A DNA stretch of 22,916 nt from a virus. Below are positions 2,549-10,314 of the stretch, in pieces. The position numbers and the translations under genes were made by a program. The DNA lies in IMG/VR virus record IMGVR_UViG_3300040815_002985, positions 1 to 22,916 of that record. One strand, given 5' to 3'. The first letter of the stretch is position 1, and each line of letters starts with the position of its first letter. Under the pieces are notes generated by a model, which was given only the letters and a program-made list of their open reading frames with translations, had not been told where the DNA came from and did no database searches.

Positions 2549-4585
2549 TTATACTAGACTTCCGCTCATGTTTGCAAGATTAAAATTAGTCTTTTTGGTA
2601 TTTTTTTCTGTCATAGCACTTACTGTTACAAGCATATTTAAGTGTTGTTCCATCGTTTTGTTAGTTTTGATCAGGTCGTTCACGGCAGTGTTGAGTGCTG
2701 TGAGGTCTCCCATCGTGTTGTCTATAGTGGTGTTATTGGTAACCAACTCTTTTTGACCTGTGCTAGAAACCGCTGTGCCCGTGGCCAATATCTCGTTGGC
2801 CAGGTTGGCCAATTGATCTCTAGTTGCCACCGCCTCTCTGCCGTGCAACATCACTGGTGTTCCAGAACCAAAGTTTTGTATACCGTTGGATCCTGTGTTA
2901 AACAGTGGCATCTCTGACGCGGAGAAATCGTCTATCATATGTTTGTTACTAGACCCTTCGGATCCGAACAGTCCCTTGCCTGCTTCTGGGAAAAGGAATT
3001 TGTTGAACCTGTCCATGAGACCACCGGGTTTGGCCGTGTTGCCCGGGGTTGGATCTTCATCAAGGCCTAAGGCATATCTCAATGCCTGAGCACTTTCGTG
3101 TACCGTGTTCCTGAATCTGCCCAGAGCACCCTCGTCCTCGGTCATCTTGGATAGGTAACTTGTGAATCCTTCCAACACGTCTGGCAGAACCGAAAACACT
3201 GTCTGTATCCTCACGTCCTGTAGGGTGGCGGCTATGGCGTCAAACTGGCTGAGCACGTTGACAGCCTTCTGACCACTGGTTGATAGTCTTTCCAATACGC
3301 CATTTACGTCCTGTTTATCAACCCCTTGACGAATACCGTCCGTGGTTATCTGTATGGCCTCTGCGAAATCTCCCGTCAGTATACCCAGGTCGGCGAACGG
3401 TTGTCCGCTCTTGACCACATCCTGACCAATCTGGCCGAGTGTGTTCTGGAATGTTCTGAATGCGTCTGGATCACCTGCTGTGTTGATGAACGACATAACG
3501 GCTCTTCTCATGTCACCGCCCGTCAACGCCTCCAGTTCAAAACCCAACTTGCTGGTAGGTCCCCCAAACGCCAACAACTCTTTAGTGAACTGTTGCATCT
3601 GTGGACTCATCTGCCCGAACGCAAGACTGATAGCATCCGCCCGTGTCTTCTCCATGCCGGCCAACTTCATCCTCATCAGTCCATCGGCCATGGCGGCCTT
3701 GTTCTGTTCGTCCAGTTCCTTGACACTCTTACCTGTCAAAGCACTCAGTGTTATCAGTTGTTTGGTATATGCCTGTGTGCCTGCTATCAACTGTTCGTTT
3801 GTGAATCTCTGTAAGTTACCCCTTGACCTTTCTGCTTCCACGAATGTCATAAGGAATTCTGAAGTGTCGTCTAAGCTCAATCCAAAACCTGCTAGGTCTC
3901 TTTCGGTCATATTCCTTAGGCCCCGGCCTAGGTCGGTGAACTGTGATACCCCTGCCTGAACCGTGCCATAGAATTTGCCCAGCAGTGTGCTGTTGGTCGC
4001 TATCAGGTCAGCGAACTTGGGTAATGGTATGGATGCCCTCGCCGCCGCGTTGCTGAGTGCCAGGATGTTGCCATTGAATGACGCACCTGTCTGCGACAAT
4101 TGGACGAAAAGTTCTCGGGTGGTGTCCATGTCTCTGGCTAAGGCCATGCTGACCTTACCAAAACCTGGTATGTCCTCTATACCCAGTGCCACCGCATCCG
4201 CCACACTGTTGATCTGTCTCGACACGTCCGTGAACCCTAGGGCGGTCTTGCCCGCGGCCATGAACGGTGTCGCTATGGCATCGAATATTTTCTTACCGAT
4301 TCCCACCATGCCCTTGCCGGATGCTTCGGTCTGTTTCTCGAACTTGTCCAATGCGGAAGTGGACTGCTTCAATTCCTGCTCTAGGTCATCGAACGATTTG
4401 CCCGATTTCTTACGCTGTTCTATCTCTTCCTTGATTCTCTTGATGTTTTCCTTCTGGAACACCATGCCAGACTTGACTGTTTTGGCCTGCTCTTTCAAGG
4501 CCCTGTTGGATCCCTTGAGATACGTGACTCCGTCCTTGAGTTCTTCAAGCAAGTCCTCTAGTATTCTCTGTATTTCTCTGTCCAT
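2549..4585 (-). CDS. Tail tape-measure-like structural protein
   Basis: The product is 678 residues. The N-terminal ~90 residues are strongly charged and heptad-like (coiled coil), followed by long alanine/glycine-rich helical stretches (about 100-480). Near the C-terminus is GTPVMLHGREAVATRDQL, a motif I associate with tape-measure-type proteins of marine myophages, and the protein ends in a further hydrophilic helix. This architecture fits a protein that sets tail length and lies in the tube lumen. T4 gp29 (590 residues) does this job, but I cannot claim direct homology to it. The gene is divergent from the gp26-like frameshift gene and shares its promoter region, and the portal gene follows directly. 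An alternative is a non-ruler internal tail or virion protein. Confidence is high for a structural protein, moderate for tape measure. Confidence 0.75.
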   Translation of the reverse strand: MDREIQRILEDLLEELKDGVTYLKGSNRALKEQAKTVKSGMVFQKENIKRIKEEIEQRKKSGKSFDDLEQELKQSTSALDKFEKQTEASGKGMVGIGKKIFDAIATPFMAAGKTALGFTDVSRQINSVADAVALGIEDIPGFGKVSMALARDMDTTRELFVQLSQTGASFNGNILALSNAAARASIPLPKFADLIATNSTLLGKFYGTVQAGVSQFTDLGRGLRNMTERDLAGFGLSLDDTSEFLMTFVEAERSRGNLQRFTNEQLIAGTQAYTKQLITLSALTGKSVKELDEQNKAAMADGLMRMKLAGMEKTRADAISLAFGQMSPQMQQFTKELLAFGGPTSKLGFELEALTGGDMRRAVMSFINTAGDPDAFRTFQNTLGQIGQDVVKSGQPFADLGILTGDFAEAIQITTDGIRQGVDKQDVNGVLERLSTSGQKAVNVLSQFDAIAATLQDVRIQTVFSVLPDVLEGFTSYLSKMTEDEGALGRFRNTVHESAQALRYALGLDEDPTPGNTAKPGGLMDRFNKFLFPEAGKGLFGSEGSSNKHMIDDFSASEMPLFNTGSNGIQNFGSGTPVMLHGREAVATRDQLANLANEILATGTAVSSTGQKELVTNNTTIDNTMGDLTALNTAVNDLIKTNKTMEQHLNMLVTVSAMTEKNTKKTNFNLANMSGSLV

Positions 4586-4665: not shown

Positions 4666-5520
4666 ATGACAGATCAAAGACCACTAGAGAAGTATTACAG
4701 ACAGCCCTCAGTCTACATAAGATTGCCCAGCGGCGGCAAATACTACGACGGTAGCGTGTTCACCCCAACAGAGACAGGTGAGATACCCGTGATGCCCATG
4801 AACGCCAAGGATGAATTGGCATTCAAAACACCAGACGCAATGATGAATGGTCAGGCCACGGTGGACGTGATCAAGAGTTGCATGCCTAATTTCGTTGATC
4901 CATGGAGGATGGTGAACTACGACACGGACGCGGTGCTGTTGGCCATACGAATCGCCACTTACGGTGAGACCATGAACATCAAATACAACCTACCGGTCAC
5001 AGGTGAGGAAATGGAACACACAGTGAACCTGCCCGCGTTACTCGAGGACCTTGCTAAAATTGAAATCAAAGATGAGGCTGTGACCAGCAAAGGATTCAAG
5101 ATCCTCATGGAACCATTGACCTACAAGACGCTGACCAAGGTACAACTGGCCAACTACGAATCACAGAAGATGTATGGAGCGTTGGACAATACCGCACTGG
5201 CGGACGAGGACAGGAGCAAGGTGTTCAGGGACACATTTGACAAGATAAACAAGATCAATTTCAGCCTTTTAGTGGACGGCATCAAGATGATCACCACACC
5301 GGACGGTGCCGAGGTTTCAGACAGGAAGCAGATCATCGACTTCTGCAATAACACGGATGCCAAGACAGTGGAAGAGATACAGACGCTGTTGGGAGGACTT
5401 AGGAACCAAACACAGATACCTCCATTGACAATGAAGTCCACAGAAGAACAGATCAAAAAAGGGGTGCCAGCCACTTACACAGTGCCGTTGACATTTGATA
5501 ACTCAAATTTTTTCGTATAG
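4666..5520 (+). CDS. gp26: gp26-like baseplate hub assembly protein (zero-frame product)
   Basis: The 284-residue product contains YIRLPSGGKYYDGSVFTP near the start, followed by EIPVMPMNAKDELAFKTPDA and FVDPWRMVNYDTDAVLLAIR. These are the conserved blocks of the T4 gp26 baseplate family (Pfam T4_baseplate, from memory). In T4, gp26 and the neighbouring gp51 help assemble the central baseplate hub and are not major virion components. This protein is longer than T4 gp26 (208). The ATG has no evident ribosome binding site, but an upstream in-frame start is excluded by the short intergenic region. The last codons (AAT TTT TTC GTA TAG) lie in a -1 slippery sequence, so a second, longer product is likely. 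It is divergent from the tape-measure-like gene. Confidence 0.85.
   Translation: MTDQRPLEKYYRQPSVYIRLPSGGKYYDGSVFTPTETGEIPVMPMNAKDELAFKTPDAMMNGQATVDVIKSCMPNFVDPWRMVNYDTDAVLLAIRIATYGETMNIKYNLPVTGEEMEHTVNLPALLEDLAKIEIKDEAVTSKGFKILMEPLTYKTLTKVQLANYESQKMYGALDNTALADEDRSKVFRDTFDKINKINFSLLVDGIKMITTPDGAEVSDRKQIIDFCNNTDAKTVEEIQTLLGGLRNQTQIPPLTMKSTEEQIKKGVPATYTVPLTFDNSNFFV
5505..5514 (+). promoter_or_regulatory. Probable -1 ribosomal frameshift site
   Basis: In the gp26-like reading frame the bases read A-AAT-TTT-TTC. Two overlapping X-XXY-YYZ heptamers are present in the correct phase: A-AAT-TTT (5505-5511) and T-TTT-TTC (5508-5514). The zero-frame stop TAG follows at 5518. In the -1 frame the reading continues (CTC AAA TTT TTT CGT ATA GAA CTG) without a stop to 5744. 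I see no convincing downstream stem-loop or pseudoknot by eye. The alternative is a sequencing error in the six-T run. Confidence 0.7.
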
Positions 5521-5744
5521 AACTGCTGACAAAGGATAACTCTGACATTGTTAAGTACCTAAAGGATTTCGATAACCAGATCAAGAATCTCAAAATGGAA
5601 GTAATGAAGATATGTTGGTTCATGCGTGGCGGAGTTACGTGGCAAGAAGCACTCAATCTCTCGCCGGAGGAACGTGGAGTAATATCGAAACTGGTAAAAG
5701 AGAACATGGAAACTACCAAGAAAACCGGTCAACCTTTCTTCTAG
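5511..5744 (+). CDS. -1 frame extension of the gp26-like gene (gp51-position domain)
   Basis: This open frame runs from the slippery sequence to a TAG at 5742-5744 and would add 77 residues, giving a fusion of about 359. The extension contains SDIVKYLKDFDNQIKNLK, then MRGGVTWQEALNLSPEERG and ends KKTGQPFF. It looks genuinely coding: amphipathic helices, normal codon use for this phage, and a 225-base stretch that otherwise lacks a gene. The only internal ATGs (5595 and 5604) have no convincing ribosome binding site and would remove a third of the domain. In T4 gene 51 follows gene 26, so this occupies the gp51 position, though I see no sequence proof of homology with gp51. By analogy with lambda G/GT it may be the tape-measure-binding part of a tail-assembly chaperone. 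Confidence 0.7.
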   Translation, partial: FRIELLTKDNSDIVKYLKDFDNQIKNLKMEVMKICWFMRGGVTWQEALNLSPEERGVISKLVKENMETTKKTGQPFF

Positions 5745-7499: not shown

Positions 7500-7806
7500 T
7501 ATACATCGCTACCGTGGTTGGGCGGTTGTGCTGTACCCATTTGCTCATTCATTACAACGCGAGCCTACCAAACCCTTGTATAATAGTTCTTGGTAAACCT
7601 GAGGATTAACTTTTTCTAAGAGCCCCATCATTTTTTGCCGTTTGCATCTAAGGATTCACCTGTCGCTTGTTAGCCGCATTTCCTTGCTCACTGGTTGCGA
7701 TGCTATGTTTGCCTGTTGGAAATTTTTAAGAAATTGTAGTTTGCCTATCGCACTTGTTTATATGAGTTTTCTTTCTAGGTCAATCTTTTTGGCTTTAAAT
7801 ACCAAG

Positions 7807-8739
7807 ATGCGAAAATATCACGTGGTACACACACCTGGAACTTTTGGTAATTTCCTTGCTTGGTTGATCGACTGCTATCAGAACAAAGAAATACAAGATT
7901 CTCCGTTTCTAGGCAGTGGAAACAGTCACGGCAGGACAAAGACGACAACCAGTTGGGATATAGTCATGCCGCAGTACATGGAAAAATACATGAATAATGA
8001 CGTGGACGGTGCGACGCTGATAGGGGTCACATATCAAAGCAAATATTTCCCATACCTGCTACACGCCAGCCTTGATAGGACCAACACCGGACAGTATGGA
8101 GATAGTGGTGTGGCGTACGCAGAGAAAGATTTTTACGGTTTTGTGAAAAAGCACGAAGCATTGTTGGAAGATGGCAGTGTCTGGATGATGGAATACCTTC
8201 CCAGATTGAAGGAGCACTTCGATTTTGAATGCACGGAGCAAAATCCCACTGTTCCTCGGTTGGTTCTCCGTAACCTTCTGTGGTTGAACATGGCATCAGA
8301 AAGTAAGCACGTATGGACCACAACAAATCAAAGGATAAAATCATCGGACCATTCGAAAATTGACATGGAGGACATACTAGATTACAACAGGCTACGTAAT
8401 TACTTGGGTAACTTGTTTGGTCATGATCTGGATTTCAGCGGAATACACAAAACTTTTTTAGATCGCAATAACTCGTTGAAGGAATACAGGACAGCGATGG
8501 GCATATTAGACGCAGTGGACAAAAATAAAAATATTATCATTGAGAAAATGAGTGTGGTGGGCGAATGCATAGTGATGTGGTATCTGGAACGCAAATACTT
8601 CGACATCAGTTTCTATAATCTGCCATTCCGATTCGCCACAACCGGCGAGATTTTAGAATACGTGGCACACTATCCAAAGTACATGAAAAATCCAAACAAA
8701 TATTATCAGACGCACTGGAGAGATTTCAATAATGGATAA
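7807..8739 (+). CDS. Tandem paralogue A, unknown function
   Basis: I place the start at ATG 7807, giving 310 residues beginning MRKYHVVHTPGTFGNFLAWL. The frame is open 55 codons further upstream, but this start aligns end to end with the 308-residue neighbour (MDKTKLCFSTGMHGHFVEHL). Shared blocks are the G-x-(F/H)-G-(N/H)-F loop near the N-terminus, PxxxLRNxxxxN, then DI(L/F)DYNRL, then FG.(D/N)LDF..(I/L)H..FLD, an ER(K/R)(Y/H)F(D/N)I segment and (H/E)YxxH(F/Y)PxY(M/L)K.PN at the end. The glycine-rich N-terminal loop followed by a helix could be a nucleotide- or PAPS-binding loop as in sulfotransferase-like proteins, but this is tentative. No ribosome binding site is evident. It overlaps the next gene by eight bases. 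Confidence 0.75.
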   Translation: MRKYHVVHTPGTFGNFLAWLIDCYQNKEIQDSPFLGSGNSHGRTKTTTSWDIVMPQYMEKYMNNDVDGATLIGVTYQSKYFPYLLHASLDRTNTGQYGDSGVAYAEKDFYGFVKKHEALLEDGSVWMMEYLPRLKEHFDFECTEQNPTVPRLVLRNLLWLNMASESKHVWTTTNQRIKSSDHSKIDMEDILDYNRLRNYLGNLFGHDLDFSGIHKTFLDRNNSLKEYRTAMGILDAVDKNKNIIIEKMSVVGECIVMWYLERKYFDISFYNLPFRFATTGEILEYVAHYPKYMKNPNKYYQTHWRDFNNG

Positions 8740-9658
8740 GACGAAATTATGTTTCTCAACAGGCATGCACGGACATTTTGTGGAGCATCTGATGTACTGC
8801 TATATTGAAGGCAAGGTTCTGCCGCTGGACTTCAACCAGAACGGAAACGCACACAACAGCAGACACGGAGATGACCCGCTGTTAGGCAACAGGAAAGAAG
8901 TAGTGTCGTGGGATCTCACCAAACACGAACACTATCACAAGTTCGAAGATAACGATAAAATATTCGGACTGGTGTTCGAGGACAGACAGGAATTCTATTA
9001 CTGTTACAGGAGGAGCCTCGATGCGGCCGGAGACATCAAAGGTTCTGGTATAAAATTGATGTCTGATAACGTGCATGAATGGGTGAGACAAAGGTTGGTA
9101 GAGACAAATTTATTGAAAGATGCCACGACCATGTACAACTACCATGAGACGTCGGGAAAGATACCGCGTTGGATCTTGAGGAATTATATTATTTTTAATT
9201 TGATATCGTACCAGGAACACGCCATTTGGAAGTCAAACAAACAAATCATGAATCTAGCAAAGTATGTTATGAACTTAGATGACATATTTGACTACAACAG
9301 ATTAAAGTCTAAGTTAGACAACTGTTTCGGTGGCAATCTGGATTTCAAAGAACTTCACAACAATTTCTTAGATGCTAACTTGAACCGTTCAATCATGGAA
9401 AAAGAAAACCAAATCCTTAAGGCGATAAAGCGAGGTGCTTCTATGTCGCTCAAAGGGTTGGATGTTGTTTCAGAGGCGAGGATATTATACGAAGTAGAAC
9501 GTAGACATTTTAACATTCCTTTCCTAATACATGACAAGTTTTACGAGGACACCAGAGAAATACACGAATACATAAAGCACTTTCCGAATTACCTTAAACA
9601 GCCAAATAAATTGTTTGGGGAATACGGATACGCACCACCTAAGGAAAAATCCAAATGA
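8732..9658 (+). CDS. Tandem paralogue B, unknown function
   Basis: The 308-residue product starts at an ATG preceded by GGAGAG at useful spacing, inside the last codons of paralogue A. It shares the ordered blocks described for paralogue A, including PRWILRNYIIFNLISYQEHA, DDIFDYNRLKSKLDNCFGGN and HEYIKHFPNYLKQPNK. The two have clearly diverged: most residues between the blocks differ, and B lacks A's HTPG version of the first loop, having STGMHG instead. This points to an old duplication kept as a pair, or separate acquisition of family members. I do not recognise the family. A sulfotransferase- or glycosyltransferase-like fold is a weak guess. The stop overlaps the next ATG (ATGA), so three genes form one operon. 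Confidence 0.75.
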   Translation: MDKTKLCFSTGMHGHFVEHLMYCYIEGKVLPLDFNQNGNAHNSRHGDDPLLGNRKEVVSWDLTKHEHYHKFEDNDKIFGLVFEDRQEFYYCYRRSLDAAGDIKGSGIKLMSDNVHEWVRQRLVETNLLKDATTMYNYHETSGKIPRWILRNYIIFNLISYQEHAIWKSNKQIMNLAKYVMNLDDIFDYNRLKSKLDNCFGGNLDFKELHNNFLDANLNRSIMEKENQILKAIKRGASMSLKGLDVVSEARILYEVERRHFNIPFLIHDKFYEDTREIHEYIKHFPNYLKQPNKLFGEYGYAPPKEKSK

Positions 9659-10065
9659 GCAACTGGACATTCAAACACAAGGAAATAACAGAACTGCCTG
9701 CTGAAGTAGTAGGCTTCGTGTATGAGATAACCAACACCACAAACGGAAGGAAGTACATAGGTAAGAAACTGGCAAGGTTCAAGAGATCTCGTCCACCGTT
9801 AAAGGGAAGAAAGAACAAGCGTAGGTACAAGGTTGATTCTGACTGGCAGGACTACTACGGATCAAGTGACGATCTCACCATTGATGTGAACAAACTTGGC
9901 AAAGATAAATTCACAAGAGAAATACTTTTCTTCTGCTATTCGAAAGCGGAACTTTCTTACATAGAAGCACGAGAACAATTTGCTCGTAAAGTTTTAGAAT
10001 CAAACGATTACTACAATGGTCACATCCGTGTGAGGGTACACGGCAAAGGAATCCTCAAGAAATAA
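9655..10065 (+). CDS. SegE-like GIY-YIG endonuclease
   Basis: The 136-residue product has GFVYEI (20-25) and KYIGKK (33-38), the two strands of the GIY-YIG nuclease core with tyrosines 23 and 34 as expected catalytic residues. A basic segment follows (about 40-57), then WQDYYGSSDDL and a later SYIEAREQFA stretch that can supply the conserved glutamate. This matches the single-domain SegE-type GIY-YIG proteins of T4-like phages. It may be a free-standing homing endonuclease or a DNA-processing nuclease. No separate DNA-binding domain is visible beyond the basic segment. The ATG overlaps the previous stop and is preceded by AAGGA at nine bases. It converges with the histone-like gene, with a terminator between. 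Confidence 0.8.
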   Translation: MSNWTFKHKEITELPAEVVGFVYEITNTTNGRKYIGKKLARFKRSRPPLKGRKNKRRYKVDSDWQDYYGSSDDLTIDVNKLGKDKFTREILFFCYSKAELSYIEAREQFARKVLESNDYYNGHIRVRVHGKGILKK

Positions 10066-10119: not shown

Positions 10120-10314
10120 TTATCCCGCTGTTTTAGCCGCGTTCTTAACTTCTTGAATTTCTTTTCTTCTTGCCTTGATCAATTTAGCCAAGTTTGCAAG
10201 TGCTTTTCTGGCTCTAGTAGCCGAAGCCTTTACACCCTTGTCTACGAACTTACCATTCTCTTCTGAGTAAGTTTGTATCTCTGTCATGATCTGCTCGTGT
10301 GTTTCATTTGACAT
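10120..10314 (-). CDS. Small basic histone-H1-like (Hc1-type) protein
   Basis: The 64-residue product begins MSNETHEQIMTEIQTYSEEN and has a lysine/alanine/arginine-rich helical core, VKASATRARKALANLAKLIK, followed by ARRKEI. The pattern G-x-K-A-(S/A)-A-x-R-x-R-K-A...L.K..K..RKE resembles the chlamydial Hc1 histone-like family. I infer a nucleic-acid-binding protein that may compact phage or host DNA; this is not proven. The ATG is preceded by AAGGAAGGA. The gene has its own sigma70-type promoter and intrinsic terminator, so it is a single-gene unit probably expressed early and strongly. Small length and alanine-rich composition make the family call moderate, but the expression signals make the gene itself very likely. 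Confidence 0.8.
   Translation of the reverse strand: MSNETHEQIMTEIQTYSEENGKFVDKGVKASATRARKALANLAKLIKARRKEIQEVKNAAKTAG

Follow-up and report, generated by a model that had tools for sequence, protein, structure and literature searches.

Reading frames at the end of a gp26-like gene

Does the gp26-like gene of this phage end at its own stop codon, or is it read in two ways, with some ribosomes passing into the frame one base back? The latter was the original prediction, made from the letters of the window (the whole stretch of DNA analysed, 22,916 nucleotides, positions 1 to 22,916 of the IMG/VR virus record IMGVR_UViG_3300040815_002985). We consider it very likely that one gene is read two ways here by a programmed −1 frameshift and that its products are a tail-assembly chaperone pair of the G/GT type. 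The features of the locus are as follows.

4666..5520, plus strand: gp26-like short form, candidate tail-assembly chaperone N domain; 284 residues, 32.0 kDa; PF12322, phrog_150
5505..5511, plus strand: upstream slippery heptamer A_AAT_TTT, in phase, read from the sequence
5508..5514, plus strand: main slippery heptamer T_TTT_TTC, in phase, kept as NNT TTT TTY in relatives
5518..5520, plus strand: zero-frame stop TAG, one codon 3′ of T_TTT_TTC
5514..5744, plus strand: −1 frame extension, helical domain resembling the gp51 C-terminus; 76 codons plus TAG (5742-5744)

The gp26-like open reading frame (ORF), whose zero-frame 3′ end reads GAT AAC TCA AAT TTT TTC GTA TAG, belongs to the family PF12322 (E=2.4e-12; 47.4 bits, with a curated cut-off of 24.5) and also matches the phrog_150 profile (E=1.7e-14). 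As had been claimed, two overlapping heptamers, both phased X_XXY_YYZ relative to the gp26-like frame, lie before its stop, and the −1 frame is open, being stop-free from 5502 to 5741 (80 codons, 76 of them past the slip). Translation agrees with the predicted products of 284 and 359 residues: a slip at either heptamer would give the same long protein (40.8 kDa), so that the short and long forms have a common N domain, which at the level of sequence is the G/GT arrangement. The junction tryptic peptide GVPATYTVPLTFDNSNFFR is contained, by translation, only in the fused product. In the −1 frame, no start is possible before an ATG that lies 80 nt past the slip site, inside the conserved domain, so the window offers no credible separate start for the extension, in keeping with the original reading.

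As a string, TTTTTTC is ordinary in the window (6 observed, 5.7 expected), and the case for frameshifting therefore rests on conservation. Among the 14 FF pairs in the 14 main ORFs checked, the slip site is the sole one encoded as NNT TTT TTC.

The slippery heptamer across relatives

With the gp26-like protein as query, relatives were gathered by tblastn and from IMG/VR; they comprised marine contigs and jumbo phages of Agrobacterium, Sinorhizobium, Pseudomonas, Klebsiella, Cronobacter, Escherichia, Serratia, Salmonella, Xanthomonas, Vibrio and Salicola; a second route was to run the phrog_150 profile over complete genomes. In all jumbo and marine relatives an in-phase T_TTT_TTC lies at the equivalent point, and the −1 extension begins with FFR or similar, the junction in PA5oct reading FF-Q. 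The same heptamer and a −1 extension are found at this point in S-PM2, P-SSM2, S-CRM01, KVP40 and phiW-14, and in HTVC008M and phiM12 the slip site reads T_TTT_TTT. All 31 representative loci (jumbo phages, cyanophages, a pelagiphage and KVP40 included) carry NNT TTT TTY at the slip point, and the residue preceding FF varies among them (N, D, H, S, R or Y). Given the codon usage of each gene, the naive probability of this outcome is about 10^-29, a figure that ignores shared ancestry and thus overstates the evidence.

Two wider IMG/VR scans, from each of which the best 80 matches were taken (not a random sample of the family), contributed 156 further complete loci, 76 of them window/jumbo-like and 80 cyano-like. 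Every one of the 156 has an in-phase TTTTTTC and an open −1 frame, the extension being 76 codons long in the window/jumbo-like loci and 59-66 codons in the cyano-like ones (59-76 overall). The T run, the −1 frame and the synonymous constraint, which the original prediction proposed to look for in relatives, are kept in both sets, and this comparative evidence strongly supports a programmed −1 frameshift.

The upstream heptamer A_AAT_TTT is present in 11 of 13 window-clade representatives, 48 of 76 window/jumbo-like loci and 1 of 60 cyano-like IMG/VR loci. The stop falls exactly one codon past the heptamer in 11 of 13 representatives, 72 of 76 window/jumbo-like loci and 60 of 60 cyano-like loci, a spacing more regular than plain termination would require. 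Judged from these sequences, the slip-site trick appears to have been kept in almost all T4-like lineages sampled, with T4 itself having two separate genes instead.

Counterparts in T4

T4 gp26 (E=8.8e-64) and T4 gp51 (E=3.9e-52) both match PF12322; on phrog_150, whose profile spans the gp51 C-terminal part, they cover positions 14-235 and 13-280, respectively. The C-terminus of T4 gp26, KEFFELL, contains the FF of the slip point, and gp51 runs on beyond it, its C-terminal region being related to the extension. In hhalign, the window/jumbo extensions were matched to the set of gp51 C-termini (88%, E=3.5e-6, about 35 residues; reversed control, E=0.2). The predicted long form thus has the make-up of gp51, a gp26-like domain followed by a gp51 C-terminal domain. 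In S-PM2, P-SSM2, HTVC008M and phiM12, phrog_150 matches as two segments that differ in frame by −1. Two PF12322 genes occur in T4 and one in each of ten other complete jumbo genomes with a match; SCTP-2 escapes PF12322, yet has one phrog_150 match.

Since gp26 and gp51 both belong to PF12322 and the gp51 C-terminus resembles the extension, the one gene here, predicted to frameshift, corresponds to two paralogous genes in T4. The original prediction described T4 genes 26 and 51 as adjacent but separate. Adjacent they are, but as divergently transcribed paralogues and not as a short gene followed by a small one, an order that belongs to cyanophages and KVP40.

AlphaFold models were made of the short form and of the extension separately. 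The extension model is all helix (pLDDT 79) and had no match in a fold search of BFVD; the window extension alone had no match in PHROGs.

Two other phages differ in arrangement. Campylobacter phage CPt10 has, as T4 does, two separate PF12322 genes, one short and one with an in-frame C-terminal extension. The gp26 homologue of Rhodothermus phage RM378 ends in ESFFWNKL (stop around 2185) and has a seven-T run with an extension in the +1 (= −2) frame; to judge from this arrangement, the RM378 lineage may use a different shift.

A putative pair of tail-assembly chaperones

Homology to T4 gp26/gp51 and analogy with lambda gpG/gpGT suggest that the two forms probably act together as tail-assembly chaperones. 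PMC3004832 places T4 gp26 and gp51 among the hub assembly chaperones and describes gp51 as essential, of unknown function and absent from the final particle; this account and the short/long architecture together fit a G/GT-type pair. The proposal that gp26/gp51 are functional counterparts of lambda G/GT is strongly supported, in that both belong to one family and gp51 consists of a gp26-like domain plus an extension-like C-terminus.

There is a small chance that the shift is real and the gp26/gp51-type proteins form part of the baseplate hub, or serve as assembly factors specific to it, instead of being tape-measure chaperones. The family is annotated ‘baseplate hub', and genetic evidence from some studies puts gp26 in the hub (PMC3004832). 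In BFVD, the short-form model (pLDDT 84.8) matched baseplate hub proteins of T4-like phages (best E=8e-23) and, weakly, one protein annotated as a tail assembly chaperone (TM 0.26). No solved tail chaperone came up as a fold match, a PDB fold search with the 284-residue model giving no match at E≤0.001 and a sequence search of the PDB giving no match. However, PMC3004832 itself has both proteins as assembly chaperones, with gp51 missing from the final particle, and the arrangement of short and long forms near the 3′ end matches G/GT. Further, the gene next downstream in S-PM2 matches a tape-measure PHROG (E=5e-21), and such genes have been identified in print as those of tail-assembly chaperones, according to the passages of PMC10885494 and PMC12846349 that cite that work. 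A chaperone pair of the G/GT type is therefore the preferred reading.

Upstream of the gp26-like gene lies a divergent neighbour.

2549..4585, minus strand: probable virion structural protein of 678 residues, with a weak tape-measure PHROG match

The PHROG match (E=0.001) falls in a coiled-coil region; Pfam, NCBIfam, PHROGs and BLAST gave no firm tape-measure identification, and there is no clear homology to T4 gp29. In jumbo phages the gene at the equivalent position adjoins gp26, its similarity to the 678-residue neighbour being marginal. The neighbour is possibly the tape measure protein.

The model of 4666-5517 also matched in BFVD unnamed proteins of 450-550 aa from jumbo phages, among them Ralstonia RSF1, RP12 and Erwinia Special G, which on their modelled folds are possibly distant gp26 relatives.

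Elsewhere in the window, 7642-8739 and 8732-9658 are tandem paralogous genes (28% identity, E=3e-39; no Pfam match), 9655-10065 encodes a SegE-type GIY-YIG endonuclease (PF19835, E=4e-35), and 10120-10314 on the minus strand encodes a histone H1-like Hc1 protein of 64 aa (PF07432, E=4e-12), here on a phage contig.

Selection ahead of any start codon

The extension could also be a separate small gene, reached by reinitiation or from its own start just past the gp26 stop. Public annotation has such a gene in S-PM2 (gp51, 58 aa) and KVP40; a start codon 2-8 nt past the slip site is frequent in cyano-like loci, and in S-PM2, P-SSM2 and KVP40 an ATG adjoins the stop. Against this stand the distance of 80 nt in the window, the scatter of start positions across relatives (2 to 107 nt after the slip site) and the extension of PA5oct, which contains zero ATG, GTG or TTG. 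Moreover, constraint in the −1 frame extends to the residues ahead of the first ATG. In 11 marine relatives, pN/pS is 0.37 over the 26 codons that separate the slip site from the first ATG of the window, and 0.26 over the remainder of the extension, from that ATG on. In the pre-ATG stretch, variable columns at the first, second and third codon positions number 21, 9 and 24 of 26, the second position changing least. Purifying selection on the −1 frame already operates ahead of any start codon. With the start-less extension of PA5oct, this means that neither the window clade nor PA5oct can be accounted for by a small gene with its own initiation. The invariance of the heptamer at synonymous positions also speaks against a separate gene, which we regard as very unlikely. 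Cyanophages and KVP40 may produce a free small protein as well.

A model of slippage and its RNA context

Under programmed frameshifting, the majority of ribosomes would terminate at 5518 and release the short protein of 284 aa. A minority would slip one base back on T_TTT_TTC while tRNA-Phe occupies the P site at TTT and the A site at TTC; A_AAT_TTT, one codon earlier, would offer a second chance to slip, with an identical product. Slipped ribosomes would add 76 residues to give the long protein of 359 aa. The shared N domain would coat the tape measure protein and the extension would recruit tail-tube or hub proteins, the slip rate setting the stoichiometry of the short and long forms.

A downstream RNA stimulator is common in programmed −1 frameshifting, and is not obligatory. 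For the window clade, no downstream RNA structure was predicted (13 loci; mean z 0.0, none below −2), whereas the mean z of cyano-like loci is −2.4; an Rfam search for a stimulator RNA found nothing. In the window clade, the shift may accordingly be inefficient or depend on the heptamers alone.

A change of frame could instead arise by slippage of RNA polymerase on the T run, giving mixed transcripts. Runs of six or seven T are conserved, and polymerase slippage could also serve RM378, with its seven T and +1-frame extension. Yet a run of six T is short for such slippage, and the run nearly always closes with C and is placed as X_XXY_YYZ, which fits tandem tRNA slippage; many cyano-like loci also have a downstream stem, as ribosomal frameshifting would predict. 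Polymerase slippage thus seems very unlikely, and slippage by the ribosome is preferred. That a single continuous gene has been split by misreading or misassembly of the T run, homopolymers being error-prone in some technologies, has virtually no chance of being right, since the same six-T run and frames recur in many independently assembled IMG/VR contigs and in isolate genomes from different laboratories, which excludes a seven-T run. One further record is identical to the window over the slip region.

A more tentative scenario, which we think somewhat less probable than its failure, is that the −1 shift on T_TTT_TTC is ancestral in T4-like phages including jumbo phages, that T4 and the Campylobacter phages swapped it for gene duplication, and that the shift of the window clade is driven by the tandem heptamer and a stop one codon on, without an RNA stimulator.

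Comparison with known systems

The original prediction held that no such shift had been described for T4-like phages, and this does not stand. Chaperone genes of T4-like phages were identified by Vladimirov, Gautam & Davidson (2022, Virology 566:9-15), as cited in PMC10885494 and PMC12846349; in its citing passage, the latter credits them with finding that TAC-N genes of T4-like phages have poly-T slippery sequences. The corresponding passage of PRFect (PMC10885494) has some T4-like phages with a short gene and a longer fused gene, without a frameshift. A 2016 review (PMC5009743) had G-T frameshifting as widely conserved ‘except T4', and KVP40.0327 was already annotated as resembling the gp51 C-terminus. 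Given the published T4-like chaperone genes and the KVP40.0327 annotation, the present locus is a well-supported new example of a general principle already published.

The locus shares with T4 gp26 (short) and gp51 (long) the PF12322 and phrog_150 family and the same short/long relation, but in T4 two divergent paralogous genes make the forms, and here one gene with a −1 shift would do so. From lambda gpG/gpGT it differs in its slippery sequence and in that the candidate tape measure gene is divergent, not downstream. S-PM2, P-SSM2 and KVP40 likewise have a gp51-like domain in the −1 frame after a T_TTT_TTC at the FF end of gp26, whereas they are annotated with two genes and have a shorter extension (59-66 codons). 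Cyanophages and KVP40 often have a start near the stop and a strong downstream stem, and the window clade lacks both. The TAC genes of Vandenendeviridae/Andersonviridae (PMC12846349) also have a conserved −1 shift on a poly-T site beside the tape measure gene, but in a separate phage lineage and on a GTTTTT motif.

The small ORF annotated as ‘hypothetical' or ‘gp51' after gp26 in these phages most likely encodes the C-terminus of a fusion protein. An in-phase TTTTTTC at the FF end of gp26 can serve as a sequence mark by which to find the chaperone pair in T4-like and jumbo phages that have not been cultured, and one gene here for the job that T4 gives to two would amount to a natural experiment on the ways in which phages set the proportion of the two forms.
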